Below are positions 13,541-47,862 of a stretch of DNA of 64,000 bases, one piece after another. Each line of letters opens with the position of its first letter. Positions within the stretch are counted from its first letter, which is position 1. The notes beneath the pieces were generated by a model. It saw only the letters and a list, made by a program, of their open reading frames with translations. It had not been told where the DNA came from and ran no database searches. A program made the position numbers and the translations under genes. The DNA lies in the NCBI RefSeq assembly GCF_002980555.1, contig NZ_PVBT01000009.1, forward strand, positions 62,001 through 126,000, read 5' to 3'. Source of the DNA: Phyllobacterium myrsinacearum (GTDB lineage Bacteria; Pseudomonadota; Alphaproteobacteria; Rhizobiales; Rhizobiaceae).

Positions 13541-13942
13541 CTACAGAAGTTCGCGAGATACGGATTGCTGAATGCGGTTTTCTTCTGGTATCTCGGCGCT
13601 GTATTGAACAATATCCCCAACAAATAGATAATTATTGAAGAAGTTTATTATCTCCTTCGATATGGAAGTTTGGCAAACAATTTCAACAATTTCGTAGTTA
13701 TCCAAAAGCTTTTCTTGGAATGTTAAAACAATTCTTCTGGAAAAAAACTCGATCTTTGAGCACCCGCCATATTGTCTCTCGCTATTATACATGAACTCAG
13801 TCTCATTGAGGTCTTCATCATCTTCCAGATAAGTTCCCGTCGCGACCGAAAACGCAGAATCGTCGGTTATGAAATTGATCGCATTGGTATCAAATTTATC
13901 GTATACAAACTCTATGATTTTGGCATCTAGACGCAAATTCAT
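13541..13942 (-). CDS. Probable immunity protein for the Rhs deaminase toxin (Imm10-like)
   Basis: 133 residues, acidic, encoded by DNA clearly more AT-rich than the flanks. It begins 25 bp after the rhs stop on the same strand, the canonical place for a cognate immunity gene. The middle reads TDDSAFSVATGTYLEDDEDL, then SERQYGGCSKIEFFSRRIVLTF. The YGGxxKIEhxxxxIxLxF pattern resembles the Imm10 family of polymorphic-toxin immunity proteins. A role neutralising the adjacent deaminase is inferred from position and pattern; the family assignment is tentative. Confidence 0.7.
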   Translation of the reverse strand: MNLRLDAKIIEFVYDKFDTNAINFITDDSAFSVATGTYLEDDEDLNETEFMYNSERQYGGCSKIEFFSRRIVLTFQEKLLDNYEIVEIVCQTSISKEIINFFNNYLFVGDIVQYSAEIPEENRIQQSVSRELL

Positions 13943-13967
13943 CAGTTTTTCTCCCTATCGATATACT

Positions 13968-16900
13968 TTAACAACATTGCTTCTGATTGCGTCGTTCGCG
14001 CTTTGCCAACGCCTTTGCTGCTTTTTGAGGGTCGGTTTTCCATTGATGAGCCACGCCGTTTTTATCCACCCAATTATATTCGATGCTAATATTCTTGTTG
14101 ACAGCGGCATCGTTCATGTTCCCTCTACAACCAAAGCATGGCGGCAACCTAGCTTCCGTATATATTACCCGGTCTCCAGGCTGAATCCTTTCATTAAATA
14201 TACTAGCTGATTCCGTATGCGTCATAATTTGCTCGGGCCATGACAACGTACGTCCCGGATTGGTGCCTCCGCTCTTGAGCGCTTCCGTATATCTCAAGTC
14301 GCCCTTGGAATCATAGACGGATATCCTGGCTTCATGTGGATCCAGGCCAAAGGGATCAACAAAAATGGTTGGCCGTTCAACATAACCATGTCGTCTGGTA
14401 CCTCCAGCCAATCCAATTGGATCTGGCGAGATATATTGTCCGGCCAATGGGTCGTAATAGCGAAAATGGTTAAAGTAGAGTCCGGTCTCGGCATCTTCAT
14501 ACTGTCCCTGAAAACGAAAAGGACAAGCCAGAACAGCGACGTCACCCTCCAAGCCGGACTCCATTGCATCCATCGACACCGCCGCATTGCCGGATGTGAG
14601 CGGCGTTTTCAGCGACTTGACTTTACCCCACACATTGTAACTTGCGGCCCATTGCAGTTTGCCGGCTTCGTCGAACATTTCCCGCGGCGTGCCAAGATGG
14701 TCGGTAACGATATAAAGAAGACTGCCGTCTGGATTTTCTTTGGCCAGCGGGCGGAAACTGTCAGGCTCAAAGTGCCAGCCTATGGCGCCATCCCAGTCAA
14801 CAGTGCCATCAAGCCGGAATGGGGCTTGTTCAGCCAACACATTGCCATCCCAGAAATAATGCACCCCGATTATCGGCGGCCGCGCTTCTTGAACGCGCAA
14901 GCCTCTCAGTTTTGCTTCTTCCAGGTAATAGGATTCACGATCTGCATCGGAAGCAGTTCGGATGACATCGGGGAAAAGCCTGGCATAATGCTGCTTCTCT
15001 GCCTCAGTGAATGTTCGCACTTTCCACAACCGCCGTCCAAACGGATCGTAGGCATAGACCCAGGTTTCACCCTCGGGCGTCACGCATGAAATCATGCGAT
15101 CCTTGGCGTCCCAGCCATAGGCCCAGGCTTTTGGGCGAAAGCCAGCGCGCTCAACACGCCGTTTGACAACGCGCCCGCGCTCATCATGAGTCAGAAATAT
15201 CTTTTCGTTTTGCGGTCCGCGCGATACTTTGATCCGTCCGCCCGGGGTGGAAAGCACGGTTGAAAAGCCATCTTCCGGACGCCGGGTCGAACGCCCGAAA
15301 CGCGAACCGAAACCCGACGCGACACCGACAATGTTAAGCGCCGCGTCATACTGAAATCGCTCTGTGGTTAGTGTGCGGCTTCCGTCTTGATCCGAACTCG
15401 ATAGCTCATCAGTGCGGGCTGCCGTGACCTGACCGTTGCCGTCGTAATCATAGACGGTCGCGCCAAACAATTGATCATGGATGGCCAGTGGCGCGAATAC
15501 TTTGTTCCATTGATATGAACGCTCCGTCACCGGAGCGACATGCCTTGGATCAACAGCCCCAGTGGCCCGCGTACCAGCGATCCCGCCCCCCCCGTTGATG
15601 GCACGTCCTGCGGATTGCAGCAATAATTGCCCGGCCAGATCATAGCTCTGCACCAAACGAAAACCCGCAGCGCTCTCGCGCCGCGTTTCCTGACCCAGGC
15701 GGTCACGGGAAAAGGCAAGAGGTGCATGGTCAGCAATAACAAGACTCTTGATAGCACCCAGCGGGTCGTAGATCGACTTTACAAGCCTTTCGCCAATGGC
15801 GCGTTCAACCCGGTTGCCGCAACAATCATAAACATTCCCGGCCCGGCGTCCGTTCGCAGTTTCTGCGACAATTGCCCCAAGCTTATCACGTTCAAATTCG
15901 ATGAGAGCCGACGCATTTTCTGCCCTGACAACCAAGCCGCGGCCATCATACCAATAGCGGGTGATATCTTGCGGTGCCGTTGAATCCGGTGCAAAGGCCT
16001 CTTCGCGCGTCAAAGCACCCGTTTTGTCGTAAGAAAATTTTAAGTGCGCACCATCGGCGTATCGTGTCTCAACAAAGCGATCTGCCGCGTCGTAGACATG
16101 GCTGATCGTCAGTCCGTCAAAATCTGTTTCGCTGACAACGCGACCGGCAGCATCACGTTGGAATGTCCAGTGCAATCCGTTCTGGTTCTCAACATTGATG
16201 AGTTTGCCGAAGTGATCATATTTGAAGCGCAGCAATCCACCCTTGGGATCCTCCAGTTCCTGCAGCAAATCAAATTCACCGAAACGATAGGTTGTGGTAC
16301 GCCCCTCACCGTCGGTCGCTCGGACCACGGCTTGATCCGCATCGAAAGAGCGGGACGTAACCACGCCATCAGGTCTGGCGGTGGTAACGGCTTCCCAGAA
16401 ATCGCCACCCCTCTGATCGGCGTAGGCAAAAAGGGTAGCACCGCCGGCGGGATCGACGATGGACGTGACGCGCCCAAATGCGTCGCGCTCGAAGACTGTT
16501 TTCTCGCCGGAAAAGCTGCGAACACCGATCAAGCGGTGATATTCGTCGTAATCCCGCTGCTCGATCAGACCGTCGTGCCGCATAATGCCGGTCGGTTGAC
16601 CGGCGGCGTCGTTGACAATATCGGTCCGGAATCCCAGAGGATTCTGCGTCGAAACCAGATTGCCCTTGTCATCATGCTCATAAAGCCAGCGATTGCTTTC
16701 GGCGTCGAACATGATCTGAAGATCACCGTCACTGCTCCAATAATAGAGCGTCTCTCGTCCCTCGGCGTCGGTAATTGCCGCGACATTGCCGTTGTCATCG
16801 TAGCGGTAAGAGGTCCGGTTGCCTTCAGCATCAATTTCGGCTGTTTTTTCCCCGTTTGGACCATATTCGAAATAACGTGTATGTCCAAGCCCATCCGTTT

Positions 16901-18656
16901 CGGCGGTGGTTCTCCGGTCATCATTGTAATGAACGGTTGTGGTGGCGTCCGGGCGGTTTACCGGGATATAGGTCGTTCTGTTCTTCTCCGCTTCATAGGC
17001 CATCCGATACCGGAATGTACTGTCGCGCGTGTTGACTGCGATGACCCGGTCGTTCTCATCATAGACATATGTGCTGTCGAGTTTGGCACCATCCGAACAA
17101 CCGGTCATCCGGCCTTTGGCATCATAGGTATAGATGTGCGACGGTCCATACTGGTTGGCGGCCGACACCATATTGCCATCAGCGTCGTAGGCATAGGAAA
17201 GCAGAGCTTTGCGCGATCCATCACAAGCAACAACATCGATTGCCTGCCGGCGGCCGGATGCGTCATTGAAAAAATGCAGCGACAGACCATCAGGATGCAC
17301 GAGCCGCTCCAGATGGCCTGCAGCATCGCGTTCGAAGGCAACGGTATTGCCGTTGCGGTCCTTTATATACTCCAACCGCCAAAGGCCGTCTGGAAACTTG
17401 CGAAATGTCTTGCGCAAGCCCCGATCCTTGAGGATCAGCCGGCGCCGTGCGTCCGCCGCCAGTCCGAGATGCGAGTATTTTACATTCCGGCTGAAATAGC
17501 CTGGAATCGGTGTCGGCGTCGCGAAAATGGCCTCAAGACTGGATGCCATGCGGTAGAGCAGAGTTCCATCCGCAAGGCGCTCGATTGTTTCATCCAGCGG
17601 ACCGGTGCGGTTGCGCCCCAGTGGACCGTCCACACCGAGATCCGAGGAGTAATTGCGGTAGAGGGCGAGAGCAATGGTCCAGCCCATGTGGAATTCCGGT
17701 GTGTGCAGAACTTTCGCCCCCGTGGCAAAAGCCACGGGCTGCGACGTGCAGGTAATGCAGTTCTTTGCCGGATTTTCCTCCGGGTCTTTCTTTGGCTTGA
17801 CGTTTTCCTCTTCCGTCAATGTCTTTTTTGCAGCTTCTGTTTCACGCGCAGCTTTGGCGGCGGCCTCCTCTGCCGCAGCCCGTTTTGCCAGCGCCTCTGC
17901 CGTCGCCTGTTCGGCGCTCTTCACCAAGGGACCAGCTTCCTCCCCAACCTTTGCGATGCCCGTTCCGGCTCTTCCCAGTTTTGGGACCGGCGCGAACAGC
18001 AGGGCCGTATCACCGACACCGGTGCCCCAATCTCCGACGCTTGCCTGCTTTGCCATGCCGACAACCATGGTCACGGGAGAGGACACAATGGCTTTTCCGA
18101 CTTCCAAATTACCGGCTATGCCGGACTTTGCCATTTCGGCACCTTCGTCGCGCACCTTGTCGTCACCGGTCACAACGCCCTTGATGTAGGTTATCCCGCC
18201 ATAGGTTTGCTTGGCATTGTTGACGACGAGTTCCTTTCCGAGTCCAAAGAGTCCCTCGACCATCCGCACGGGAGCCATGGCCACATTCTTGATATTGTCG
18301 CCAAGCGTATAAACTGGCCTGCCAGCCTCGAGTGCGGCCTTTTCCCGCTCATACATGGCGATGGTTTCTTGGCGGTTAGGCCCTTCCATTGGCGGCGGGC
18401 CATCGCCAGCCCAGGTTGGCTCAAAGGCAGAGTCAGGCGCATTTTTTGCGCCCTCAATCATCTCGTTAAGCCTGCCGATCTGCTCCTGCCGGAGCTTGGC
18501 GTGGTCGGCATCTTCCTGTCCGGCAACCGCATCCACCCGCACACGCGCCTTGGCATTCCCCACCTCTTCGCCGGTGGATTCGCCATCGCGCGTCGTGACA
18601 TAGACCTGTTTGCCCATTCGCCAGGCAATTTGCGTCTCACCGCCATCGGGCATCAT
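13968..18656 (-). CDS. Rhs polymorphic toxin with C-terminal deaminase domain
   Basis: 1562 residues. Residues 1-300 form an effector-specific N-terminal region without a PAAR domain; it includes an Ala/Glu/Lys-rich, probably coiled stretch (~245-295). A DUF6531-type start (PVAFATGAKVLHTPEFHMG, ~306-325) leads into many RHS/YD repeats (for example YRYDDNGNVAAITDAEGRET) that build the cocoon. The core ends in ETGLYFNHFRYYDPLAGQYI and the pair DPIGL...DPFGL 17 residues apart, the Rhs autocleavage signature. The last 124 residues are the toxin tip: H1480 and E1482 in THTES, C1507 and C1510 in LPPCFGC, the zinc site of cytidine-deaminase-fold toxins, most like the Pput_2613 type. A PAAR-like protein, a DUF2169 adaptor and VgrG lie upstream in the same direction, so delivery by this T6SS is the natural model. 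Confidence 0.9.
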   Translation of the reverse strand: MMPDGGETQIAWRMGKQVYVTTRDGESTGEEVGNAKARVRVDAVAGQEDADHAKLRQEQIGRLNEMIEGAKNAPDSAFEPTWAGDGPPPMEGPNRQETIAMYEREKAALEAGRPVYTLGDNIKNVAMAPVRMVEGLFGLGKELVVNNAKQTYGGITYIKGVVTGDDKVRDEGAEMAKSGIAGNLEVGKAIVSSPVTMVVGMAKQASVGDWGTGVGDTALLFAPVPKLGRAGTGIAKVGEEAGPLVKSAEQATAEALAKRAAAEEAAAKAARETEAAKKTLTEEENVKPKKDPEENPAKNCITCTSQPVAFATGAKVLHTPEFHMGWTIALALYRNYSSDLGVDGPLGRNRTGPLDETIERLADGTLLYRMASSLEAIFATPTPIPGYFSRNVKYSHLGLAADARRRLILKDRGLRKTFRKFPDGLWRLEYIKDRNGNTVAFERDAAGHLERLVHPDGLSLHFFNDASGRRQAIDVVACDGSRKALLSYAYDADGNMVSAANQYGPSHIYTYDAKGRMTGCSDGAKLDSTYVYDENDRVIAVNTRDSTFRYRMAYEAEKNRTTYIPVNRPDATTTVHYNDDRRTTAETDGLGHTRYFEYGPNGEKTAEIDAEGNRTSYRYDDNGNVAAITDAEGRETLYYWSSDGDLQIMFDAESNRWLYEHDDKGNLVSTQNPLGFRTDIVNDAAGQPTGIMRHDGLIEQRDYDEYHRLIGVRSFSGEKTVFERDAFGRVTSIVDPAGGATLFAYADQRGGDFWEAVTTARPDGVVTSRSFDADQAVVRATDGEGRTTTYRFGEFDLLQELEDPKGGLLRFKYDHFGKLINVENQNGLHWTFQRDAAGRVVSETDFDGLTISHVYDAADRFVETRYADGAHLKFSYDKTGALTREEAFAPDSTAPQDITRYWYDGRGLVVRAENASALIEFERDKLGAIVAETANGRRAGNVYDCCGNRVERAIGERLVKSIYDPLGAIKSLVIADHAPLAFSRDRLGQETRRESAAGFRLVQSYDLAGQLLLQSAGRAINGGGGIAGTRATGAVDPRHVAPVTERSYQWNKVFAPLAIHDQLFGATVYDYDGNGQVTAARTDELSSSDQDGSRTLTTERFQYDAALNIVGVASGFGSRFGRSTRRPEDGFSTVLSTPGGRIKVSRGPQNEKIFLTHDERGRVVKRRVERAGFRPKAWAYGWDAKDRMISCVTPEGETWVYAYDPFGRRLWKVRTFTEAEKQHYARLFPDVIRTASDADRESYYLEEAKLRGLRVQEARPPIIGVHYFWDGNVLAEQAPFRLDGTVDWDGAIGWHFEPDSFRPLAKENPDGSLLYIVTDHLGTPREMFDEAGKLQWAASYNVWGKVKSLKTPLTSGNAAVSMDAMESGLEGDVAVLACPFRFQGQYEDAETGLYFNHFRYYDPLAGQYISPDPIGLAGGTRRHGYVERPTIFVDPFGLDPHEARISVYDSKGDLRYTEALKSGGTNPGRTLSWPEQIMTHTESASIFNERIQPGDRVIYTEARLPPCFGCRGNMNDAAVNKNISIEYNWVDKNGVAHQWKTDPQKAAKALAKRERRNQKQCC

Positions 18657-18692: not shown

Positions 18693-19103
18693 TCATACGT
18701 GGTCAATGCCAACACTTGATTTTGACCTGGGCGTCTCGACACGCCCTGGACCAGGGCGGTTGATCTCGGCAGGGTCACCGTCACGTACGGCCGCCCACCC
18801 CTCCGTGAAAACGGCGCTTGCACCCTGCTTGATCACAGCATGGCTTTTATATCCGGCAATCTTGACGCCCTTGCCGGTACCCGGCTCGTGTCCAATGCAA
18901 ACACTGGGTCTGGTGTTGACCACAAAATCTTCGTTGCTGTTGTTGCGAACGGTCGTTGCTGTCCGCACGACTGTGTCGAAAAAGGCGATCGTATTATAGC
19001 CCACCGGAACCATGCCTGACCCTACGGGTGTCAGGCAGACGTCCGGACTGATCGAATAGACAAAGTTGGCGCCATCCTTCCGGGCGGAGACTGGAACAGT
19101 CAT
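18693..19103 (-). CDS. DUF4150 PAAR-like tip protein
   Basis: 136 residues, beginning MTVPVSARKDGANFVYSISP, with DVCLTPVGSGMVPVGYNTIA and a later VCIGHEPGTGKGVKIAGY. This is the DUF4150 (PAAR-like) layout, which caps the VgrG spike and recruits an effector. Its ATG overlaps the stop of the DUF2169 gene (4 bp), so the two are translationally coupled. The rhs gene starts 36 bp downstream. The Rhs protein lacks its own PAAR domain, so this protein is the likely physical link to the VgrG spike. Confidence 0.85.
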   Translation of the reverse strand: MTVPVSARKDGANFVYSISPDVCLTPVGSGMVPVGYNTIAFFDTVVRTATTVRNNSNEDFVVNTRPSVCIGHEPGTGKGVKIAGYKSHAVIKQGASAVFTEGWAAVRDGDPAEINRPGPGRVETPRSKSSVGIDHV

Positions 19104-20323
19104 ACACTTACTTCCTCTTCAGCCATGAGATCACACGGAACTGCACATTCATCCGGTTTTGGCGCTGAACGCAATACATCTGGATGGCGCGCGAACCATT
19201 CCTTCTCAAGTGAATCGGAGGCTGACAGGATGAGGCCCGCCGTTGTCGGCTCGTGAAATACCAATCGCCACGTTATCATCAACCGGCAGTCTAAGAGATC
19301 GTCCGCAAGAACATCGAGAAAAACCGTATCGAGCGCCGGCTTGTAATATTCTGTGGTACCATCCACGTGTTCAAGTGCAATACACGGACAGTGGTCCGGG
19401 ATGCTCAGCTGAAACAAACGCGTTTCCGGACGAAGACCCGCCAGTTCGATGGTGCACGGCGTCTGTATGTGCTCTCCGGGGACAACAAGCCCAGCCGCGG
19501 CCGAGTTATTGTAAGAAAAATCGTAGTCTTCGGGCCATCGAGGCCAGATGTTGTCAAGCCAAGCCTGGTCGTAGGTTCCCCCAAACGTCCGGCGCGGCAG
19601 CCACGCAGGCGGTATTGCGCCCAAGCCTTCGACTGCATAACTCCTGTAGGGATCGCTAACCGGTTCCTGTGGATTCTCCAACTGCGGAGCAGATTGGGGT
19701 AGCGTGAAATCAGTCAGATTTTTGTCGATCCAACCCCGGCCAAGCGGATTGTGGTGCCACGCATCCAGAACCGGTTTTCCATCTTCGTCATTGCCGGTGA
19801 ATATCGTACCGCCATAGGCATACTCGTAGCGAATGGGCAGCGCCACGATGGGTTCCGGCTCGCTTAATTGCCAGCCCTTGAACAAGGTGTCATGTTTGCG
19901 CCAGTCCGCTTTCTCGTCATCATTTAAATGCTGCTTCCATTCGGGGACCCAAACCCGCGGCCCGGTGACCCGGATGATCTTTTCCGCCCGCACACCGCCG
20001 TTGTCAGCGACACGCACGCCCACAAGCCAAGATGGCGCTGCCTTGCCTTCCGGCGCATGGGCGATTGCATTGACGATGATGTCCGTCGCCGGTTTGTACG
20101 AAACAAAGTCCGAAGGATGATACAACGAAGATATATTGACGTCTTCGTAGCACAGATCGGTGAAGTTGAATGGGTCCTGTTCCTGCGAAAGAACGCATTG
20201 CCCCGTTTCACCGATGTCAAACGTCGCTTTGACCATGAAAACACCGAATTCATGACCTCGACTATCCGTATTGGAAAATCGCATATTGGCAAACGGCGTA
20301 AAGTTCCTAATTGCAACAGACAT
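19100..20323 (-). CDS. DUF2169 T6SS effector adaptor
   Basis: 407 residues from the preferred ATG at 20323 (MSVAIRNFTPFANMRFSN); a start four codons upstream is also open. DUF2169 features include FGVFMVKATFDIGETGQC, RVTGPRVWVPEW, RYEYAYGGTI with HHNPLGRGWI, and GGTYDQAWLDNIWPRWPEDYD. Proteins of this family are encoded between vgrG and PAAR/effector genes and are needed to load particular effectors on the spike; they act in the cytoplasm and are not secreted. Here the gene is coupled to the DUF4150 gene by an ATGA overlap and lies about 60 bp after vgrG. Confidence 0.85.
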   Translation of the reverse strand: MSVAIRNFTPFANMRFSNTDSRGHEFGVFMVKATFDIGETGQCVLSQEQDPFNFTDLCYEDVNISSLYHPSDFVSYKPATDIIVNAIAHAPEGKAAPSWLVGVRVADNGGVRAEKIIRVTGPRVWVPEWKQHLNDDEKADWRKHDTLFKGWQLSEPEPIVALPIRYEYAYGGTIFTGNDEDGKPVLDAWHHNPLGRGWIDKNLTDFTLPQSAPQLENPQEPVSDPYRSYAVEGLGAIPPAWLPRRTFGGTYDQAWLDNIWPRWPEDYDFSYNNSAAAGLVVPGEHIQTPCTIELAGLRPETRLFQLSIPDHCPCIALEHVDGTTEYYKPALDTVFLDVLADDLLDCRLMITWRLVFHEPTTAGLILSASDSLEKEWFARHPDVLRSAPKPDECAVPCDLMAEEEVSV

Positions 20324-20385
20324 CAGGTGCCCCAATTGGCAGCATGTGTTTTTCCGGCATTGAGTGGCATTGGCCGGCGCTCAAT

Positions 20386-22743
20386 TCAGTTGCTATCAAT
20401 GACCCCTCCGATCATCTGATATGGGCCATCTGCCTCGAAATGAAACTTCACTCCCTTGATAATGATGGTGCCGTCCTTTTTCATCACGATGAGGCTTTTG
20501 CCGACCTCAATCGTATATTCCTCTCCCACGGTCAGCTTCTTGGTATGTCCCACCTTTTCCATTGCAACCTGGCCGACAGTCGTAATCTTCACCGCCCCAA
20601 CCTGCTCGGTCGACACGGCACCGATGTTGATATTATCCATCTGGCCAATAGTCGTGTTCCGTACACCACTGCCAATGAGCCCGGCAAGCGACTCGGCGAT
20701 TTTGCTCCCCGCGCCGGCCATTGACTTGCCGCCTTCTGCTCGCAGACCGGGCGCCTTGGCACCGTTGACACCGCCTCGCGCATCATCAAAGCCAGTGGGA
20801 ATGGCCGCAAGGGTGCTTGCACCCAAGCTGGCACCATAACTGCCGGCTTGTTCCGCTACACCGCCCATTCGTTGAGCTTCTTCGGAACCCTGTGACGCAT
20901 TTTGAACCCCTGCAGCGCCCATTACCGCCTGGGCTGCGCCTGCCGCCTTTGATGCTGCGGACCCGCCCGCACTTTGGACTGCCTGCATTGCGATGCCCAT
21001 GGCTTGAGAGAGCAATCCTGAACTCTGCGCCATTAGTCCCGAAAGTCCCCCGCCAAGCAGTGAGGCCGCCGCACCGCCGACCGCGCCGACCACGAGATTC
21101 ATGCCGCCGCCGACCTGCTGGTTCATATTGGCGCCAACTTCAAGCTGGTGATTGGCACCAGTTGAGTGCATGGCATTGGCGTCTACACGGTGTATTTGAT
21201 TGTTGAGTACTTTGCTCGTCATATCCTTCTGCGCGTGCAGAAAAAAGTTTTCCTGCCCATTGTCATCCTCAAATGACATTTCATTAAAGCCATTGCCTTT
21301 GTGGGTATTGGTCCTGAAACTGGATTTTGTCTTGTGAGCCGGCAGATTGTAAGGAACTTTGTTGTCGGCATTGGCTACCAGGCCAATGACATAAGGCCGG
21401 TCAGGGTCACCATTTTCATGGCTGCAAATAGCCTGCATCCCGATACGTGGATTGACGCGCGCTCCCCATGTCCCGCCTCCCCAACTTTGAACAACCTCGA
21501 CCCATTTCGTGTCGGAGCCATCTTTTTGCGCGCGACGGTCCCAAGGAAACCACAGCTTCACACGGCCATATTGATCGACATGGATTTCCTCTCCAGGCGG
21601 TCCCGCTATAAGGCCGATATGTGTGCCATCAATGCGCGGCCGTGGTGTGGAGCGATGCGGCGTTGCCGGCACGCGGCTGGGCAAGGCATGAAAACTATTG
21701 GAATAGTCGGCAGCTCCGTCATTTGTTTCATAGGTTGGATCGATTGCCGTATGCACAATCCTTGTAACCACAAACTCTTCATGAGCCTGATCGGGATGGG
21801 CAACATCATAGGGTTTGAACCGGCGGCCGGCCGCCAGGGTCCGCACGGTGGAATGGCCTTCAACCCGTTCATGATCGGCTTCGACCGCCTGCATGCGCCG
21901 TTGAGATGCCGCTTCATTGTCGGCAACGTTCAACGCGCGCGCTGGATACTCATAAAGTTCGTACTCGCCACTTTTCGGCAGCGAGACCAGGGATGGGCTC
22001 GTTGCCTTCGGCACAATTTTGGGCGTTTCAAAATTCCAGTCTGCTCCCGTGCGCTTTCCAGGGGTGAAAACATAACGCTTTTCCAGCCCGCCAATGTGGT
22101 TGCGGTCGGTTGAACCCGCTGCATAGCGAACATTGGTTTCGGGACCTTCAGTATAGCCGAATGTGTGGGTGGCCACATGCAATGTGTGTGCGCCCGCGAC
22201 GTGCTCAAACCAGTAGAAAATGCCATCCTCTTCGAGACGGCGGGTGAGAAAGGCCAAATCCGTTTCGTTCCATTGAACCGAATAATGTTGCGGCTTTGGC
22301 GGATTGATCACGCCGCCAGTCACCGCAGCCTTGATTCCATGCTCGGACAAAAGCATCTGCAAAACGTCGATTGAGGTTTTGTCGAGCCAGATGCGGCAAT
22401 CGGAACGCTGCGACAGCAACCAGAGCTGCGGGCGCAGTACCATGCGATACGCGCGAAGGCCGCGGGTTACGGGAGGCCCTTCCATGAGCTCGGTGACCAG
22501 GCCATTCCACGGACGATACTGCCCCTCGCCGGTTTCAAGCTCAATGTCCAGCGTCTTCCCGACAATGTCATTTGCCTTAAGATCCGTCTTCTTCGATTTG
22601 ACCGTAAGGGCGATCTCGAAAAGCCCCGAAATTTCTTCATTTGCTTCAAACCGCTCAGGAAGCAAGACATCTGGTCCAAGAGGGCTTTGAATGCGCAAAA
22701 TGCGGGTGGCCTGAATATAGCCGGCATCCGAAATAATATTCAT
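20386..22743 (-). CDS. vgrG: T6SS spike protein VgrG (TssI)
   Basis: 785 residues from the ATG at 22743, supported by GAGGG about 9 bp upstream; an upstream start would add 27 residues without family similarity. The gp27/gp44-like part includes WLLSQRSDCRIWLDKTSIDV and FWYFEH-like text (IFYWFEHVAGAH). The OB/gp5 domain carries GEEIHVDQYGRVKLWFPWDR and ARVNPRIGMQAICSHENGDP, followed by the DUF2345-like tail with EMSFEDDNGQENFFLHAQKD. An Ala/Gly/Ser-rich segment (about residues 546-696) interrupts the beta-helix. A final valine/isoleucine-rich repeat stretch (NIGAVSTEQVGAVKITTVGQ) ends the spike. The DUF2169, PAAR-like and Rhs genes follow in order. Confidence 0.93.
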   Translation of the reverse strand: MNIISDAGYIQATRILRIQSPLGPDVLLPERFEANEEISGLFEIALTVKSKKTDLKANDIVGKTLDIELETGEGQYRPWNGLVTELMEGPPVTRGLRAYRMVLRPQLWLLSQRSDCRIWLDKTSIDVLQMLLSEHGIKAAVTGGVINPPKPQHYSVQWNETDLAFLTRRLEEDGIFYWFEHVAGAHTLHVATHTFGYTEGPETNVRYAAGSTDRNHIGGLEKRYVFTPGKRTGADWNFETPKIVPKATSPSLVSLPKSGEYELYEYPARALNVADNEAASQRRMQAVEADHERVEGHSTVRTLAAGRRFKPYDVAHPDQAHEEFVVTRIVHTAIDPTYETNDGAADYSNSFHALPSRVPATPHRSTPRPRIDGTHIGLIAGPPGEEIHVDQYGRVKLWFPWDRRAQKDGSDTKWVEVVQSWGGGTWGARVNPRIGMQAICSHENGDPDRPYVIGLVANADNKVPYNLPAHKTKSSFRTNTHKGNGFNEMSFEDDNGQENFFLHAQKDMTSKVLNNQIHRVDANAMHSTGANHQLEVGANMNQQVGGGMNLVVGAVGGAAASLLGGGLSGLMAQSSGLLSQAMGIAMQAVQSAGGSAASKAAGAAQAVMGAAGVQNASQGSEEAQRMGGVAEQAGSYGASLGASTLAAIPTGFDDARGGVNGAKAPGLRAEGGKSMAGAGSKIAESLAGLIGSGVRNTTIGQMDNINIGAVSTEQVGAVKITTVGQVAMEKVGHTKKLTVGEEYTIEVGKSLIVMKKDGTIIIKGVKFHFEADGPYQMIGGVIDSN

Positions 22744-22937
22744 AATCAAAGTCCCTCTTCTTTCACAGCAGCAGCCTTGAACTTCAGAACTTGAGAGACT
22801 GCGGCAAAAGCTATTCGGAGCCACAATAAAAATTGGGCGGGCGCCAGCCTATCCCTGCCGCCGCCGTCAGATTCGACAATGTTCCGCCATATGCGCCGGC
22901 ACAATCGTTCGCCTTGCGTGTCACATCCGCAGAAATA

Positions 22938-24204: not shown

Positions 24205-26838
24205 TCACCCCTTAGCATCGTTTTGTGACGGATGTTCAGGTGGATCCTGCAATAGCTTTACCGGTTCGACAGAAACAAGAAGCCCCCCGGCATCATCTGT
24301 ATCTACACGTACAACTTCCGGATGTAAATTCTCCAGTGTCAATTGCAATATATTGCGTGAAAGTTTTGGCAGCAACTCGCGCGATATGGTCGATTCGATC
24401 GCTCTTGCGCCGGTTTCCACAGCTTTGGAGCGGGCAATCAGCGCCTGGGCAACCCTTGCCGAAACGGCAAGATCGGCTTTGTACACATCACGCAGGCGCC
24501 TGCCGACCTTGTCGAGCTGCAGCTTGACGATGAGACCCAAGACCTTGTCGTCAAGTGGCTTATAAGGAACAATCGTCACGCGGCCCAGAAATGCCGGCTT
24601 GAACTGCCCGAGCAACTCCGGCTGCAGCATATCGACCAGAGCCTGTCCTTCAGGCATGGTGTCGGGATCAGCAGCAAGCGCGGTGAGCGTATTTGTGCCG
24701 GTATTGGCGGTCATCAGGATAGTTGTGTTCTTGAAATCGATGTCCCGGCCCTCGCCGTCCTTCAGCATCCCCTTGTCGAAGACCTGATAGAAAATATCCT
24801 GAACACCCGGATGCGCCTTGTCGATTTCATCAAGCAGCAACACGCCATAGGGCCGCTTGCGCACCGCTTCGGTCAGTATTCCACCCTCGCCATATCCGAC
24901 ATATCCCGGGGGAGAGCCGAGAAGCAGCGAAACCTTATGCTCTTCTTTGAACTCCGACATGTTGATGATCGTCAGATTCTGGTCTCCGCCATACAGCGTC
25001 GAGGCCAATGCCAAAGCGGTTTCGGTTTTGCCGACGCCAGAGGTTCCCACCATGAGGAAGACGCCGGGCGGGCGCCGGTCATCACCGAGATTGGCGCGTG
25101 CCGTGATCATGGCGTCCGAAATAAGCGCAATTGCCTGATCCTGTCCGACAACCCGTTCCTGAAGACGCGCTTCCAGTGTCTGTACAGCTTCAACGAGACT
25201 GCGCACCAGACGGCCGACGGGAATGCCGGTCCAGCGGGCAGCAACAGCAGCAACGGTTTCGCGGTCGACCACGCGGTGAATCAGCGGAGACTCGCCCTGC
25301 AGCAGGCGCAGTTCCTTCTCCAGCAATCCGAGTTTCGGCCTGCTTCCCGGCTCGTCAATCGTATTTTCAATCGCGTCGGCCGCCTTGACGAGAGACTTCT
25401 CCTGTTCCAACCGCGCGGTGAATGTCCTGGCCGTGGCCTGTAATGTGCTCAGTTGGGCCCCGATCTCGACCAAACGCTCCCGGCCGGCCGTTGTTTCAGG
25501 CTCCAATTCCAATCGCTGCCGTTCAAGATTGAGCAGATCAATGGCACGATTGGCATCTTCGATTTGCGCCGGAACGGTGGCACGGGAGATAGACACCGCT
25601 GCCGATGCCGTATCAATCAGACTGACCGCCTTGTCCGGCAGCTGCCGCCCCTGGATATAGCGCATCGACAATGAAACGGCGGCCCTTACAGCCTCGTCGC
25701 GAATCTTGACCTGATGGTGTTTTTCAAGGGCTGGCACAAGGCTGCGGACCATGCGCACGGCTGTTTCTTCATCCGGTTCGTCCACCTTGACAACCTGAAA
25801 CCGGCGGGTCAGTGCCGCATCGCGTTCGAAATATTTCTTGTATTCCGCCCAGGTGGTTGCCGCGACCGTACGAAGCTCGCCGCGTGCCAGCGCCGGCTTG
25901 AGCAAATTGGCGGCATCCCCCTGCCCCGCCTGGCCGCCGGCGCCGACCAGACTATGCGCCTCATCGATAAAGAGTATCACCGGAACGGGGGACGACTTCA
26001 CATCATCGATAACGCCTTTCAGCCGCCGTTCGAACTCGCCTTTGACGCCGGCCCCTGCCTGCAGGAGGCCAAGGTCAAGCGTCAGCAAGCGGATGTCACG
26101 CAGCATTTCCGGCACATTGCCGGCAATGATCTCAAGGGCAAATGCCTCGACGATTGCGGTCTTTCCCACGCCTGCTTCGCCGACAAGGATGGGATTGTTC
26201 TGTCTGCGGCGAACGAGAATATCGATCAACTGGCGCAGCTCAGCCTCGCGGCCGACCACCGCATCGATTTCGCCGTTGCGCGCCTGTTCGGTCAGATCAA
26301 TGGTAAACGCGGACAGAAACTCTTCGCTGCCGTTGCGCAGCGGTGCGGCCTGTGCCGTTGGCGTCACTGGCACCTCCGCTCCGCGTTCTTCCATCTGGCG
26401 TTCCAGTTCGCCCAGCCGGATATCCCGCGCCGATGGCAACGAACTGATCGTCGTGGCACGCAATGTGCTGTCGGACAGCAATGTGTGAAGAAGATCAAGG
26501 ATTCCGATACTGGTTCGGCCGCTTTGCAATGACACCGCAATCCATGCTTCGCGAATGACATCAATGATTCCCGTCGAAATCGCGGGGGCTGCCGTATTGT
26601 CGCGCGGATAGCGCTCCAATGCCCGGTAAGCCTCCGATTCCAACGCCGCCGGATCACCGCCGCTGCGCTGAACAATCGGACCAAAGCGCTCGCTCTTATC
26701 ATTCAAGCCAAGAAGCCAATGCTCGATCTCGACATGGGAATGATTATTCCTGACGGCAATGGCAACCGCCTCTTCCAGTCCAACGACCACATCGCCGTCA
26801 AGCTTTTGAACCAGCCGCCTCAGATCCAGTTTTGGCAT
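24205..26838 (-). CDS. clpV: T6SS AAA+ ATPase ClpV (TssH)
   Basis: 877 residues. N-terminal Clp-N repeats (residues 1-160), first AAA+ module with Walker A GEAGVGKTA and Walker B LFIDEAH, middle coiled domain around 420-530, and second AAA+ module with GTSGVGKTE and LLLDEIDKAHPG, then the C-terminal small domain. ClpV hexamers pull apart contracted TssB/TssC sheaths for reuse in the cytoplasm. The GARLxxxV-type text and the genomic setting separate it from ClpB. It diverges from tssA; the 277 bp between them must hold promoters for both arms of the cluster. Confidence 0.95.
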   Translation of the reverse strand: MPKLDLRRLVQKLDGDVVVGLEEAVAIAVRNNHSHVEIEHWLLGLNDKSERFGPIVQRSGGDPAALESEAYRALERYPRDNTAAPAISTGIIDVIREAWIAVSLQSGRTSIGILDLLHTLLSDSTLRATTISSLPSARDIRLGELERQMEERGAEVPVTPTAQAAPLRNGSEEFLSAFTIDLTEQARNGEIDAVVGREAELRQLIDILVRRRQNNPILVGEAGVGKTAIVEAFALEIIAGNVPEMLRDIRLLTLDLGLLQAGAGVKGEFERRLKGVIDDVKSSPVPVILFIDEAHSLVGAGGQAGQGDAANLLKPALARGELRTVAATTWAEYKKYFERDAALTRRFQVVKVDEPDEETAVRMVRSLVPALEKHHQVKIRDEAVRAAVSLSMRYIQGRQLPDKAVSLIDTASAAVSISRATVPAQIEDANRAIDLLNLERQRLELEPETTAGRERLVEIGAQLSTLQATARTFTARLEQEKSLVKAADAIENTIDEPGSRPKLGLLEKELRLLQGESPLIHRVVDRETVAAVAARWTGIPVGRLVRSLVEAVQTLEARLQERVVGQDQAIALISDAMITARANLGDDRRPPGVFLMVGTSGVGKTETALALASTLYGGDQNLTIINMSEFKEEHKVSLLLGSPPGYVGYGEGGILTEAVRKRPYGVLLLDEIDKAHPGVQDIFYQVFDKGMLKDGEGRDIDFKNTTILMTANTGTNTLTALAADPDTMPEGQALVDMLQPELLGQFKPAFLGRVTIVPYKPLDDKVLGLIVKLQLDKVGRRLRDVYKADLAVSARVAQALIARSKAVETGARAIESTISRELLPKLSRNILQLTLENLHPEVVRVDTDDAGGLLVSVEPVKLLQDPPEHPSQNDAKG

Positions 26839-27115
26839 GAATTACAACCCTGCTCCCGCTTTCATCACAGCACAATAGAAATATCCATGGCAGGAAATCA
26901 ATCGCCAAAGCACCAGCATTGAAAAGGCCGACAATGAAACAACAGTGCCCCATAAAATATGACAGTACGATATCACGCGAACATGATCTTCATGGACGGC
27001 ATGATGAATCTTGCCAAACCGCCGTGACAGCGGTCATTTGCCAATGTTCCGTTTGACATATTCTTCTTTTAAGGTCCAAAACGGCGATACGGAGTTTGTG
27101 TATTTGGGTTTGCGC
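26839..27115. promoter_or_regulatory. Divergent intergenic region between clpV and tssA
   Basis: 277 bp, AT-richer than the flanking genes, separating the minus-strand clpV-hcp-vgrG-rhs arm from the plus-strand tssA-tssG arm. Both promoters are expected here. I could not find a convincing sigma-54 pair with correct spacing or a clear palindromic operator. Confidence 0.5.
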
Positions 27116-28231
27116 ATGAATAACTATGAAATTCTCGGTATAGCGTTTGCGGGTGACAAACCTTGCGGGGTGAACCTGAGAACGGACGGCACACTGGTTT
27201 TCGCCTATCAAGCCATCCGGGATGCGCGCTCAACGGCACGTTCCGAAGACCGGACAAGCGAGAATCCGGCCATTGTCAGTCAGGACGATGAACGCAACGT
27301 GCGCAATGCGGCACCCTTTGTGCACAAACCCTCGAGTCAATGGCGTAACGTCCATGATCTCTGCTTCGAGGCACTCTCCCTTCATACCAAGGACATAGAA
27401 CTGTTCTCATGGCTTCTGGAGGCGGCCGTCCGCGTGGAAGGGATCAGCGCGGTGGCGGAAGTACTCGGCGCCTTCGACAAGATCATCAAGGACCATTTCG
27501 GTCAGATCCATTCAATCGACGATGAAGACATATCGGATAAACTCGCGCCCCTGACCGGTCTCAACGGCAGCCAGGATGACGGCACGCTGGTGCGGCCCCT
27601 GCGGCTTGTTTCTCTCCTTCCCAACGAGAGTTATGGCCGCTTCAGCCTTTGGGCATATGATCAGGCGTTCCGTGATCTTTCCGGTCCGCAATGGGGAGAG
27701 TTTCGCGATGCACTCGAACATGTCGATGTCCACGGCTTCAGCCGCGCCAAGAACGATGCACTGCGCTCGCAGGCAGCGCTGGCTTCCATAGATGCGTTTC
27801 TGACGCAGGAGAGCGGCAGCAGTATCGGCGCTTTTTCCGTTTCCAGGATACAGTCGGTTCTCGACTCCATCAGCGGGGCTTACAACGAAATGGAAAAGCT
27901 CATCACGCAGACACTGCCAAGCGTGGTTCCGGTCGCAGCGAGCGCCCATGGCGAACAGCCCGTCAATCCCGGCGTTCCGTTGCAGGCGCCGATGGCTGCC
28001 GGCGCCATCCAAAACCGCGAACAGGCATTTGATCAGCTCTTGCAGATTGCCGCTTTTTTTCGCATGAGCGAACCGAATTCAGCCATTCCGCTCGCTCTGG
28101 AAACACTTGTTCGCCGGGGCCGGATGGACTTTTTGCGCCTTCTGGAAGAACTTATCCCCCAGGATGATCTGCGTCGCGATGTACTCTTGCGCGCAGGAAT
28201 AGACGCCAATCAACGGCGGGAAGGAAACTGA
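27116..28231 (+). CDS. tssA: T6SS protein TssA (ImpA)
   Basis: 371 residues from the ATG at 27116 (MNNYEILGIAFAGDKPCGVN), which fits the ImpA_N family start; an upstream in-frame extension of 35 codons has no family text. The conserved ImpA_N region includes WRNVHDLCFEALSLHTKDIE, SWLLEAAVRVEGISAVAEVL and DHFGQIHSIDDED. The C-terminal part (FDQLLQIAAFFRMSEPNSAI and FLRLLEELIPQDDLRRDVL) matches the helical end of short TssA proteins. TssA contacts baseplate and sheath and helps polymerisation. It opens the tssA-B-C-impD-tagJ-E-F-G operon. Confidence 0.9.
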   Translation: MNNYEILGIAFAGDKPCGVNLRTDGTLVFAYQAIRDARSTARSEDRTSENPAIVSQDDERNVRNAAPFVHKPSSQWRNVHDLCFEALSLHTKDIELFSWLLEAAVRVEGISAVAEVLGAFDKIIKDHFGQIHSIDDEDISDKLAPLTGLNGSQDDGTLVRPLRLVSLLPNESYGRFSLWAYDQAFRDLSGPQWGEFRDALEHVDVHGFSRAKNDALRSQAALASIDAFLTQESGSSIGAFSVSRIQSVLDSISGAYNEMEKLITQTLPSVVPVAASAHGEQPVNPGVPLQAPMAAGAIQNREQAFDQLLQIAAFFRMSEPNSAIPLALETLVRRGRMDFLRLLEELIPQDDLRRDVLLRAGIDANQRREGN

Positions 28232-28350
28232 TCGGGTGAGCCGTGACAGTATAGACTACATCCATTGGTTGAGAAATTAGTTGCTAACTCGAAATGGTTT
28301 GCAATAATCCCCCCACTTCTCAAGAAGCACACATAGGCAGGAGGCATCAA

Positions 28351-28872
28351 TTGGCCAGCGTTCACGACAAACTCGAAAGAGTCCGCAAGCCGAGGGTACA
28401 CATCAAATACGAAGTTGAAACCGAAGGTGCCGTTGTCGAAAAGGAACTGCCATTCGTTGTTGGTGTTCTCGGCGATTTTTCCGGTAATCCATCGGAGCCG
28501 CTCAAGCCATTCGGCGAGCGCAAGTTCGTTCAGATCGACCGCGACAACTTCGACGACGTCATGCGCCGCATGACACCGGGGCTGAATATCCGCGTGGAAA
28601 ACACCATTGAAGGCAAAGGCCGCGAGATGCCGGTTTCGCTCAAATTTGAAAAACTTGAAGATTTCGAGCCCGGTTCCATCGTCGAGCAGGTGCCTGCTCT
28701 CAAGTCCCTGCTGGATGCCCGCAACCAGTTGCGCGATCTTCTGACCAAGGCCGACCGTTCGGAAAATCTGGAAGTACTGCTTGAACGCATTCTGCAGAAC
28801 CAGGCGGACCTGAAGAAACTTGCTGCAGAGCTTGACGAGCGTAAACCTGACAGCGAAAAAGGGACGAAATAA
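28351..28872 (+). CDS. tssB: T6SS contractile sheath small subunit TssB (ImpB)
   Basis: 173 residues starting at TTG (28351), fixed by a perfect AGGAGG 6 bp upstream; the upstream open frame (from 28294) lacks homology. Text: [56 protein letters not shown]. TssB pairs with TssC to build the sheath. The TAA abuts the tssC ATG with no gap, so the two are produced together. Confidence 0.95.
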
Positions 28873-30351
28873 ATGGCGACCTCCAAGAGTGCATCGCAAG
28901 GGACCACGACCGTTGTAACGGAGAGCCTCCTTGACGAAGCGATCTCCGCAACCAAGCAGACGTCCGCAGACCGCACGGAGCAGTTGCTGCGCACCCTGAC
29001 GAGCGAAGCTTTGAAGGGGACGGTTTCCTACAACCGCAATCTTTCGGTCACGATCAACAATGCGATCAAAAAGATCGACGAACTGCTGTCGACGCAGGTC
29101 GCCGAGATCATGCACAATGAGGACTTTCGCAAGCTCGAGGGCAGTTGGCGGGGTTTGCGCTATCTCGTCTACAACAGCGAAACCAGTGCAAATCTCAAGA
29201 TTCGCGTCCTGAACGCCAGCAAGCGCGACCTGTCGCGCGACCTGTCAAAGGCGGTCGAGTTCGATCAGAGCAAGATATTCAAGACCATCTATGAAAGCGA
29301 ATTCGGCATTGCCGGCGGCGAGCCGTTCGGTGCGCTCATCGGCGACTATGAGTTCGGCAATTCGTTTGAAGACATTGAAACCCTGCAGAACATGAGTTCG
29401 GTTGCTGCGGCGGCCTTTGCTCCGTTCATCGCGGCGGCCGGACCCACACTTTTCGGCTTCGATGACTTCACCGAATTGTCCAAGCCGCGGGATCTGGAGA
29501 AGATTTTCCAGACCAAGGAATACATCAAGTGGCGGTCGTTCCGCGAAAGCAGCGATTCTCGCTTCGTTACCCTGACGATGCCGCGCGTTCTCACACGCAT
29601 GCCCTACGGTCCGGCAACATTGACCATTGATGAATTCGATTTCAACGAAGCCATCAAGTTCGGCGACAACGCAATGGATCACGGCAGTTACTGCTGGTCG
29701 AACGCCTCCTATATCCTCGGCTCGCGCCTGACGGATGCATTTGCCAAGAATGGCTGGTGCACCGCCATTCGCGGCGCGGAAAATGGCGGCAAGGTCGAAT
29801 CCCTGCCCGTTCATGTGTTCCAGAGCGATGACGGTGATACGGATACCAAATGCCCGACAGAAATCGGCATTACCGACCGCCGCGATGCCGAGCTTGGAAA
29901 ACTGGGCTTCCTGCCCCTGTGCCATTACAAGAACACCGACTATGCCGTGTTCTTCGGCGCGCAGACAACACACAGGCCGGAGAAATACGACCGCCCGGAA
30001 GCAACGGAGAATGCCGCGATTTCAGCACGCCTGCCTTACATGATGGCAACGTCCCGGTTTGCGCATTATCTGAAAGTGATCGGCCGCGACAAGATCGGTT
30101 CCTTCATGGAGGCGGAAGATTGCCAGGCCTGGCTCAACCGCTGGATCAACAACTATGTGAATGCCAATGACGATGCCGGACCGGAAAATCGTGCGGCCTA
30201 TCCGCTGCGTGACGCCCGTGTCGAAGTCAAGGCTGTTGCGGGCAGTCCTGGTTCCTACGAAGCAATTGCATGGCTGCGCCCATGGTTGCAGATGGAAGAA
30301 CTGACAACGTCATTGCGCATGGTTGCACGCATCCCCAAGGCAAGAAATTGA
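28873..30351 (+). CDS. tssC: T6SS contractile sheath large subunit TssC (ImpC/EvpB)
   Basis: 492 residues. Conserved sheath features: YNRNLSVTINNAIKKIDELL, DFRKLEGSWRGLRYLVYNSE, DQSKIFKTIYESEFGIAGGE, GALIGDYEFGNSFEDIETLQ and the C-terminal LRDARVEVKAVAGSPGSYEA with WLRPWLQMEELTTSLRMVAR. Directly follows tssB. A diverged second EvpB-family gene (impD) lies 86 bp downstream. Confidence 0.96.
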   Translation: MATSKSASQGTTTVVTESLLDEAISATKQTSADRTEQLLRTLTSEALKGTVSYNRNLSVTINNAIKKIDELLSTQVAEIMHNEDFRKLEGSWRGLRYLVYNSETSANLKIRVLNASKRDLSRDLSKAVEFDQSKIFKTIYESEFGIAGGEPFGALIGDYEFGNSFEDIETLQNMSSVAAAAFAPFIAAAGPTLFGFDDFTELSKPRDLEKIFQTKEYIKWRSFRESSDSRFVTLTMPRVLTRMPYGPATLTIDEFDFNEAIKFGDNAMDHGSYCWSNASYILGSRLTDAFAKNGWCTAIRGAENGGKVESLPVHVFQSDDGDTDTKCPTEIGITDRRDAELGKLGFLPLCHYKNTDYAVFFGAQTTHRPEKYDRPEATENAAISARLPYMMATSRFAHYLKVIGRDKIGSFMEAEDCQAWLNRWINNYVNANDDAGPENRAAYPLRDARVEVKAVAGSPGSYEAIAWLRPWLQMEELTTSLRMVARIPKARN

Positions 30352-30437
30352 ACGATATCCCGGCGCCCGTATGCGCGCCGGGAAACAGTAGTGTTGATTG
30401 AATCGGCCGCCTTGCGCAGACGGAAACAGGAGCACTC

Positions 30438-31961
30438 GTGTTCCCCTCCGTTGGCGCACAGGCGGTCTTTCTGCCCGCATGTTCACCGGAAGAATGCAGG
30501 AGTGATGATTTCGTGATATCCGAGCGTCTGACACCGGATTTAGAACGATATGCGATCCGTCAATCATCTTCCGATGCCGCTGCGCCGGATATGGCGGCAA
30601 CATCTGTCATTCGCTTGCAGATTGACCGGCTGATTGATGCCATTGACCAAACTCTGACGCTGCAGGTCAACCGCATCATACACCATGCGGATTTTCAACG
30701 GCTGGAAGCGCTGTGGCGCAATCTGCTTCAGCTGATCCAACTGCCAACGGGCACAAGCCCCGTGCAAATTCGCGTTTTCTCCGCCAAGTGGAAAGAGATC
30801 GCCCGCGATATCGAACGGGCTGCGGATTTTGACCAGAGCCGGCTGTTCGAACTGATCTATTCGCAGGAGTTCGATATGCCCGGCGGTCAGCCCTATGGCC
30901 TCCTGATCGGAGATTATACGATTACCGCAGGTATCAATCCCGCAACGGGCACGGACGACATAGCCATTGTCGAGGGCATATCGAGCGTTGCGGCGGCGGC
31001 CTTTTCTCCGTTCATTTGCGCTGCGGGCCCATCGCTCCTTGATCTTGAAACCTTTGCCGATCTCGATCGCCTGCCGGATCTTTCATTTCTGCTCAAGCCG
31101 CAGCGGGCAGCCCGTTGGAACAGGTTGCGCCAGGCGTCCGACACGCGGTTTCTCGGATTGACGCTGCCGCGGATTCTGGTTCGTCCGCCTTACCGGAACA
31201 ATGATATCGCGCGGCGGGACGGCTTTGTCTTTCGCGAGGAAACCGACCCCGATGGCAGCTCCCTTCTTTGGGGCAATTCGGCCTTCGCCTTCGCCTTGCT
31301 CGTTCTGAGGGAATATGCCTCGTCCGGATGGTTCGCGGATCTGCGGGGGGTGCGGGAAGACGAGCACAATGGCGGGCTCGTGGATTCACTGTCCTATGTA
31401 TCGTTTCATACGGACAAACATGCTTTTGCCTCCCAGCCGCCCGTTGAACAGCGGCTCAATGCGGAGCAGGAACAAACGCTGAGTGAAGCAGGCTTTGTCC
31501 CGCTTTCCACCGTGCCCTATACACCGCACCTGGTGTTCAATTCCAATCAATCCGTGCACAAGGCGGCACGGTATGATTCGGAAATCGCCAATCGCAACGC
31601 ACGCATTGCCTCCATGCTGCAATATGTGCTTTGCGCCTGCCGCTTTGCCCATTATCTCAAAATGATCATGCGTGAAAATGTCGGCCAGATTGCAACCTCC
31701 GATAGCTTGCGTGACACGCTGGAAAGCTGGCTGTTTACGTATTGCATCGGCAATGATGATGCAGACAGCAGCGTGAAGGCCCGTCATCCGCTACGGTCAG
31801 CATCGGTCGACGTTCGGGAAATACCGGGCCGTCCCGGAGTGTATGGCTGCGTCATGCGGCTCCAGCCTCATTTTCAGCTCGATGACGTCACGGCAAGTTT
31901 CCAGCTTCTTGCCGATATGAACAGCAAATCAGACCAGTCCAGCAGGGGTAAAGCGCTATGA
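30438..31961 (+). CDS. impD: Second TssC-family protein (ImpD, EvpB paralogue)
   Basis: 507 residues starting at GTG (30438) with AGGAG 5-6 bp upstream. The EvpB core is plain: HHADFQRLEALWRNLLQLIQ, DQSRLFELIYSQEFDMPGGQ, YGLLIGDYTITAGINPATGT, and the C-terminal VREIPGRPGVYGCVMRLQPH with FQLDDVTASFQLLADM. It is clearly paralogous to the adjacent TssC but differs throughout, with a different ~65-residue N-terminus. Rhizobial imp clusters carry the same impC-impD pair; whether ImpD enters the sheath, caps it or acts in the baseplate is not known to me. Its stop overlaps the tagJ ATG by 4 bp. Confidence 0.9.
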   Translation: MFPSVGAQAVFLPACSPEECRSDDFVISERLTPDLERYAIRQSSSDAAAPDMAATSVIRLQIDRLIDAIDQTLTLQVNRIIHHADFQRLEALWRNLLQLIQLPTGTSPVQIRVFSAKWKEIARDIERAADFDQSRLFELIYSQEFDMPGGQPYGLLIGDYTITAGINPATGTDDIAIVEGISSVAAAAFSPFICAAGPSLLDLETFADLDRLPDLSFLLKPQRAARWNRLRQASDTRFLGLTLPRILVRPPYRNNDIARRDGFVFREETDPDGSSLLWGNSAFAFALLVLREYASSGWFADLRGVREDEHNGGLVDSLSYVSFHTDKHAFASQPPVEQRLNAEQEQTLSEAGFVPLSTVPYTPHLVFNSNQSVHKAARYDSEIANRNARIASMLQYVLCACRFAHYLKMIMRENVGQIATSDSLRDTLESWLFTYCIGNDDADSSVKARHPLRSASVDVREIPGRPGVYGCVMRLQPHFQLDDVTASFQLLADMNSKSDQSSRGKAL

Positions 31962-32770: not shown

Positions 32771-32773
32771 ATC

Positions 32774-33265
32774 ATGGCGGTGAGCGGCAGGATATCCTTT
32801 GAATCCGTTCTTGACCGGTTGATGGATTACGACCCGGATATGACGGCTGACCAGCCATTGACCCCGCGCGAACAGATCAACCGCGTGCGAGAAAACGTTC
32901 GCCGGGATATTGAAGCCCTGCTCAATGCCCAGCAATGGCCCCATAGCATCGAAAAGGAATTCGATGAGCTTCAGACCAGCCTGCTGCGCTTTGGCACTCC
33001 GGGATTTCATGGGCTTATGCTGGCAACGACCCAGCAGCGCCTGCATCTGGCCGAAGCAATTCGAAAGGTCATCACGGCGTTTGATCCGCGATTGGCGCGC
33101 GTGCGGGTTGGTCTGGGCAAAAGCCGTGGTAACCAGGACCGCGTTCTCGATTTGCGCATAGAAGCGGAGATGCTGCTTCCAGACGGCGTGGAAGCGATTG
33201 TCTTCGATACCTCGCTCGATCCGGCCACCCGGCATTTCATGATTGGCGGCGCCCATCATGGCTAA
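32774..33265 (+). CDS. tssE: T6SS baseplate protein TssE (ImpF, gp25-like)
   Basis: 163 residues. gp25-like domain across residues 35-160: REQINRVRENVRRDIEALLN (the conserved VREN/I-RDLE segment), TSLLRFGTPGFHGLML and AIRKVITAFDPRLARVRVGL. TssE joins TssF/TssG/TssK in the baseplate wedge. The 3' end overlaps the tssF start (ATG at 33258) by 8 bp. Confidence 0.93.
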   Translation: MAVSGRISFESVLDRLMDYDPDMTADQPLTPREQINRVRENVRRDIEALLNAQQWPHSIEKEFDELQTSLLRFGTPGFHGLMLATTQQRLHLAEAIRKVITAFDPRLARVRVGLGKSRGNQDRVLDLRIEAEMLLPDGVEAIVFDTSLDPATRHFMIGGAHHG

Positions 33266-36052: not shown

Positions 36053-36059
36053 TGCAGCC

Positions 36060-38782: not shown

Positions 38783-38849
38783 GTCTTTCGCTTGTTAGCA
38801 GCTCTTGGGTTGAAGGGCATTCGACCAATTTTGTCTGTTGTTCGGTTAG

Positions 38850-40518: not shown

Positions 40519-40533
40519 ATACCGGCAGGCCAT

Positions 40534-47858: not shown

Positions 47859-47862
47859 TGCC

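Follow-up and report, generated by a model that had tools for sequence, protein, structure and literature searches.

What does the C-terminal tip of the large Rhs protein encoded here by Phyllobacterium myrsinacearum do, and how would its producer withstand it? Within the window, by which we mean the whole 64,000-nucleotide stretch analyzed, the Rhs gene (13968..18656, minus strand) encodes a 1562-residue effector whose RHS repeats, DUF6531 domain, RHS core, and C-terminal deaminase tip were delineated from the open reading frame and from profile matches in Pfam and NCBIfam. The core ends at DPFGL (residues 1434–1438; 14343..14357, minus strand), where the TIGR03696 match stops at residue 1438; DPFGL is the usual self-cleavage boundary of Rhs proteins. 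The 124 residues that follow (1439–1562; 13968..14342, minus strand) make up the tip and contain an HTE motif (residues 1480–1482; 14211..14219, minus strand) with His1480 and the presumed catalytic Glu1482, as well as a PCFGC motif (residues 1506–1510; 14127..14141, minus strand) with the presumed zinc ligands Cys1507 and Cys1510. A probable immunity gene (13541..13942, minus strand), recognized by its position and by a profile score described below, encodes a 133-residue protein and is separated from the toxin stop codon by 25 bp; an AGGGAG sequence resembling a ribosome-binding site (13951..13956, minus strand) was read 8 bases before its ATG. The GC content was 47.5% in the tip and 37.8% in the 133-residue gene, compared with 56.2% in the Rhs chassis and 56.7% in the window, and the toxin and antidote cassette is thus AT-rich relative to its chassis. 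The 133-residue protein is acidic (pI 4.19, net charge about –14.5), whereas the tip is basic (pI 8.97) and has a lysine/arginine-rich tail. The first-pass annotation of this DNA had described a 124-residue tip after DPFGL, the residues H1480, E1482, C1507, and C1510, and an acidic 133-residue gene 25 bp downstream in AT-rich DNA; all of this was borne out, with exact residue numbering and with Pro1506 also in place.

The explanation that we consider quite probable is that this locus is a polymorphic-toxin cassette on a type VI secretion system (T6SS) Rhs carrier, in which a deaminase tip of the Pput_2613/BaDTF3/DddB family, most likely acting on DNA to convert cytosine to uracil, is paired with an Imm10-like antidote. 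Sequence comparisons support the family assignment, the conserved active-site residues, the gene order, the T6SS neighborhood, and a weak relationship between this antidote and those of the relatives.

Several searches led us to class the tip as a divergent member of this known family. First, the PF14427 profile (Pput_2613-like deaminase) matched residues 1439–1562 with an E-value of 3.1e-15 and 56.4 bits against a curated cut-off of 25, and no deaminase family beside PF14427 matched the Rhs protein at E ≤ 1. Membership in the DddA-type (SCP1.201) or DYW-type families was rejected, as neither gave a profile match at that threshold. The earlier proposals of a deaminase-toxin fold and of a resemblance to the Pput_2613 type, not to DddA, therefore both held up. 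Second, hhalign comparison of the tip with a profile of eight relatives made without it gave a probability of 99.2% and an E-value of 8.7e-20, and the deaminase likeness of the tip lies far beyond chance. Third, a PDB search with the tip as a single sequence returned 9k3e_B, 9pw0_A, 9pw2_A, and 9pw1_A as best matches (E 4e-7 to 3e-5), all named YD repeat protein or BaDTF3; these records give no organism, and we take Taylorella equigenitalis from the use of the name DddB/BaDTF3 in the literature. The 9pw0 and 9pw2 chains have alanine and 9k3e has glutamate opposite Glu1482, which would fit a catalytic residue altered for crystallography. Finally, a PDB search with profile A3, whose eight rows are the window tip itself and seven relatives, again matched BaDTF3/DddB chains best (E 3e-36), and it reached cytidine deaminases and APOBEC3G only at E 0.1–1.4, intermixed with galectin-1. 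The histidine, glutamate, and two cysteines of HTE and PCxxC were kept in the tip and in all seven of these relatives. Two other members of A3 matched XOO_2897-deam (best E 1.2e-4) and two matched a general dCMP/cytidine deaminase model (best E 0.022). Matches of Tudor_FRX1 (E 0.1) and Omp10 (E 0.11) profiles were taken as chance, as were matches to protein A in the PDB search of the tip, which fell on the lysine-rich tail.

Within its family, the window tip is an outlier. Its identity to any relative compared was at most 35%, and in leave-one-out comparisons with their own family seven relatives scored 132–195 bits, whereas the window tip scored 64–72. In a tree, the tip sat on a very long branch whose placement was without support. 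When the tip was aligned with eight relatives (L003, L006, L007, and L009–L013; L008 was left out as a partial near-copy of L007), it kept 18 of the 25 columns invariant among those relatives, including the zinc and catalytic positions, and differed at the other seven, which are the Met, Thr, and Glu of SG[ND]MTxxE, the Gly of LG[FY]P, the Arg of HTExR, and two glycines. These three motifs are what all eight compared relatives have in common and do not come from a curated or published family definition, and their alteration in the tip therefore does not exclude it from membership. The tip shares with BaDTF3/DddB a YD-repeat/Rhs-type parent protein, an alignment over residues 2–105, the HTE and PCxxC motifs, and a small gene behind, but it is distant from that protein (E 4e-7 by single sequence), has replacements for the SGNMT, the LGFP, and the Arg of HTExR of DddB, and carries the lysine/arginine-rich tail and one extra residue before PPC. 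The most interesting part of the locus, as judged from these alignments, is the retention of the active-site residues while flanking positions have changed.

What would such a tip attack? The first-pass annotation had called the target unknown, a statement that requires revision, as the family has a published target class. The Taylorella protein BaDTF3 is described as toxic when expressed in E. coli and as causing C-G-to-T-A changes, with T as the most efficient preceding base, A and C less efficient, and no changes behind G, a 5'-HC context (De Moraes et al., 2021; PMC7901873). The same protein is called DddB and termed a dsDNA deaminase in PMC13304343, is mentioned in PMC12698189 both for its use in the FOODie method and for preferring TC over GC, and has been the subject of a study of the structural basis of dsDNA deamination (Yin et al., 2026, as cited in PMC13299692). 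Solved structures of BaDTF3/DddB comprise PDB entries 9k3e, 9pw0, 9pw1, and 9pw2, two of which include an immunity chain. Because the window tip is an outlier, carrying the target and sequence preference of the family over to it amounts to extrapolation, and its own substrate and sequence preference may differ from those of its relatives.

The altered residues bear on two other accounts of the tip. It could be active with the same fold but on a shifted substrate (RNA, ssDNA, or free nucleotides) or in a sequence context unlike that of DddB, with an antidote that diverged alongside it. Of the seven lost positions, five fall either in the loop that leads up to HTE or directly behind it, in the three motifs named above, with zinc and catalytic residues kept, and the leave-one-out scores fell below those of all seven relatives tested for the tip and all eight for the antidote; moreover, the same fold in the BaDTF2/DYW branch serves ssDNA and RNA (PMC7901873). 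Such a shift nevertheless seems to us distinctly improbable for a tip that aligns over the length of the domain and has retained 18 of the 25 invariant columns. A tentative and somewhat less improbable proposal is that the tip forms a separate BaDTF3 branch with a rebuilt active-site loop, a substrate or context unlike that of DddB (RNA, ssDNA, or GC contexts, for example), and an antidote now too divergent for Imm10 models to recognize. The loss of positions invariant in the compared relatives, together with a truncated transposase just downstream, could also be read as the mark of a decayed or inactive cassette kept by the chassis, but the frame is open, none of the four zinc and catalytic residues is lost, and the adjacent gene is intact behind its ribosome-binding-like site, and we give this possibility hardly any weight.

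The case for the 133-residue protein as an antidote begins with comparable genes in the relatives. In nine of nine relatives (L003 and L006–L013), a small open reading frame on the plus strand begins anywhere from 25 bases upstream of the toxin stop codon to 15 bases downstream of it. After exclusion of L008, whose downstream frame is rearranged, all eight cognate products scanned matched Imm10 (PF15588), the immunity family that PMC3482391 names alongside Pput_2613 deaminases, at E ≤ 0.019, with three over the Pfam cut-off and five below it. The 133-residue protein itself matched no family in Pfam or NCBIfam, Imm10 included, and a PDB search with this protein alone gave nothing credible. Scanning its genome with the Imm10 model gave no match, which carries no weight, as the controls gave none either. 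Against a profile of the eight cognates built without it, the protein scored 18.2 bits; none of the 4951 shuffled versions that were scored (of 5000 made) reached this value, the best having 14.1 bits, and the best score outside the family and its copies among 824 open reading frames of the window and the loci was 4.5 bits. Local hhalign comparisons with the cognates gave probabilities of 63% and 67% over 58 and 41 columns, and global comparison with the cognate profile gave 15.5% only. In leave-one-out tests, all eight cognates scored 30–79 bits, whereas the 133-residue protein scored 16–22 bits. Position, size, acidity, and local similarity that includes the YGGCSKI region thus liken it to the cognates of relatives, whereas the Pfam model does not match it, and at best it would be a remote relative of these Imm10-type proteins, Imm10-like but not a member of PF15588. 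Profile A2, which combines six cognates with the 133-residue protein, matched 9pw2_B (MEI) and 9k3e_C (DddB immunity protein) in the PDB at E 0.004–0.005. This match spans the first 45 positions of the profile and lies outside the middle stretch in which the 133-residue protein resembles the cognates; it therefore speaks for the cognates, to which the DddB antidote is linked, and for the 133-residue protein only through them.

Could the adjacent gene simply be an unrelated acquisition and not an immunity gene? Its product has no family match, and its weak similarity to Imm10-type proteins falls mostly within 41–58 columns. An unrelated gene would be a surprising neighbor, however, at 25 bp behind the toxin, with an acidic product facing a basic one and a cognate-profile score above all scored shuffles. 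In addition, among 394 genomes of the taxonomic family, a single genome had the tip family and a single genome the antidote, and the two were the same. We therefore regard an unrelated gene as very unlikely, and the earlier designation of the adjacent gene as the antidote gains support from adjacency and profile score as a probable assignment.

The genes around the cassette suggest how the toxin might be delivered. The Rhs gene is preceded by genes for VgrG (TssI), the spike (20386..22824), for a DUF2169 protein (19100..20335), presumably an effector-loading adaptor, and for a PAAR-like spike-tip protein (Tox-PAAR-like, PF13665; 18693..19103), all on the minus strand and all assigned by profile matches. 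Adjoining them is a T6SS core cluster (24205..54297, no single strand) that runs from TssH to TagF and includes TssA-like (ImpA_N), two TssC, ImpE/TagJ, TssF, TssG, a protein kinase, PP2C, an FHA protein, TssK, TssL, and TssM. The Rhs protein has the features of a T6SS Rhs effector, namely an Rhs core, an exchangeable tip, and linkage to VgrG/PAAR beside a T6SS, and the link between toxin pair and T6SS that was drawn at first pass is supported by this gene order. We infer that the Rhs protein, probably aided by the DUF2169 protein, would be loaded on the VgrG and PAAR-like spike for injection into a neighboring bacterium and that the 124-residue tip would be released at DPFGL; acting as a zinc deaminase, the tip would most likely convert cytosine to uracil in the DNA of the victim, with lethal damage or C-to-T mutation as the outcome, while the 133-residue acidic protein would bind the tip and protect the producer and its kin.

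Other features of the T6SS region can be noted. The two TssC sheath genes are in tandem (28873–31961, plus strand) and are annotated likewise in Phyllobacterium sp. T1293. The cluster also encodes a caspase-like protein (42891–44486, minus strand; PADLOC E 1.2e-11) and an M23 peptidase/SLT protein (40534–42816, minus strand), and products similar to both are annotated in plasmids of Phyllobacterium sp. T1293 and 628. A 1897-residue open frame with a TTG start (54322–60015, minus strand) lies at the end of the cluster; with the thresholds applied, searches of Pfam, NCBIfam, PDB sequences, and PADLOC found no match for it.

Comparisons within the genus are informative about exchange of the cassette. 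The first 8 kb of the T6SS core occur in the plasmids of strains T1293 and 628 at 83% and 80% DNA identity, respectively; searches of the 38-kb stretches read around the core in these plasmids with the VgrG, DUF2169, PAAR-like, and Rhs proteins, the tip, and the antidote of the window gave no match at E ≤ 1e-5, and the VgrG-Rhs module is therefore not beside the T6SS core there. Two other genomes of the genus (G012 and G016) contain VgrG (65% identical) and Rhs core (32% identical overall) together. The last 176–177 residues of the Rhs core are 49–51% identical in these two genomes, which with the genome of the window itself were the three of 21 genus genomes that matched. Their Rhs tips (two of the 20 other genus genomes) differ from the window tip and had no Pfam match at E ≤ 0.1. 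A similar core end with different tips would fit cassette exchange. Just downstream of the antidote gene, a truncated IS240/IS6-type transposase (13059–13472, plus strand) covers 46 of 139 positions of PF13610, and it may mark how the cassette arrived. A terminal repeat, GGGCTCTGTTGG at 12999–13010, which we take to be IS6-like, pairs at 92% with CCAACAGAGACC at 10596–10607, although this pairing may be due to chance. We found no second copy of the truncated transposase in the genome, and a repeat search and a promoter/terminator scan at the cassette yielded nothing useful.

Relatives of the tip were sparse and scattered. A scan of contigs from 84,980 species, which started from an alignment of three sequences, relies on exact peptide patterns, and may miss relatives, gave 131 pattern matches, of which seven (L006–L012) were confirmed at 31–35% identity in Pantoea ananatis, Bacteroidota, and other Pseudomonadota. 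Further relatives came from a genome of the same class (L003) and from a Streptomyces plasmid (L013). L004, at 19.7 bits, fell below the cut-off and was dropped as a chance CxxC match, and L005 was left out because its genome is that of L006. The PF14427 profile found 1 genome among 100 relatives, 3 among 385 of the class (two over the cut-off), 2 among 398 of the phylum, and 1 among 394 of the family; these sets overlap, and each count includes the genome of the window. No second copy of the toxin domain or antidote was found elsewhere in that genome, and a search with the antidote as a single sequence, which could miss remote relatives, found only itself among 21 genus and 394 family genomes. 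Viral contigs gave 3 and 15 pattern matches, none confirmed; searches of phages for relatives gave none, nor did plasmid searches with the antidote or tip of the window, and a plasmid search with the tip of a relative gave two records.

DddA (SCP1.201, BaDTF1) and SsdA (DYW-like, BaDTF2) resemble the predicted system in deaminase fold and interbacterial delivery (PMC7901873), but the tip matches neither family at E ≤ 1 and its best PDB matches are BaDTF3 chains. Cells that survive interbacterial deaminase toxins can be mutated by them (PMC7901873), and members of this group serve as DNA-editing and footprinting reagents (PMC12698189; PMC13299692). The kind of toxin is already known, with entries for toxin and for toxin with antidote solved, and the new part is the unusual divergence of the window copy. 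A BaDTF3 outlier with changed loops and an intact catalytic site would reveal which positions of the family are indispensable and which determine the context of the target. The locus also adds a T6SS Rhs carrier in Phyllobacterium, in the sole genome with this domain among 394 of its taxonomic family; no paper in the literature searched combined Phyllobacterium, type VI secretion, and Rhs.

Two loci among those collected have unusual arrangements. In Zobellia uliginosa (L008, 3878–4360), a near-copy of the Aquimarina toxin (L007) lies on a short 160-residue open reading frame and is followed by an antidote frame whose second half looks unrelated by eye; the two frames are perhaps the remnant of a displaced cassette. 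On a Burkholderia glumae plasmid (L014, 2935–3264), a separate small gene behind an Rhs gene corresponds to about half of the deaminase tip of a relative, a half-length match that was not used among the relatives; an Imm1 gene lies further on, and the half-tip gene is perhaps another displaced tip.
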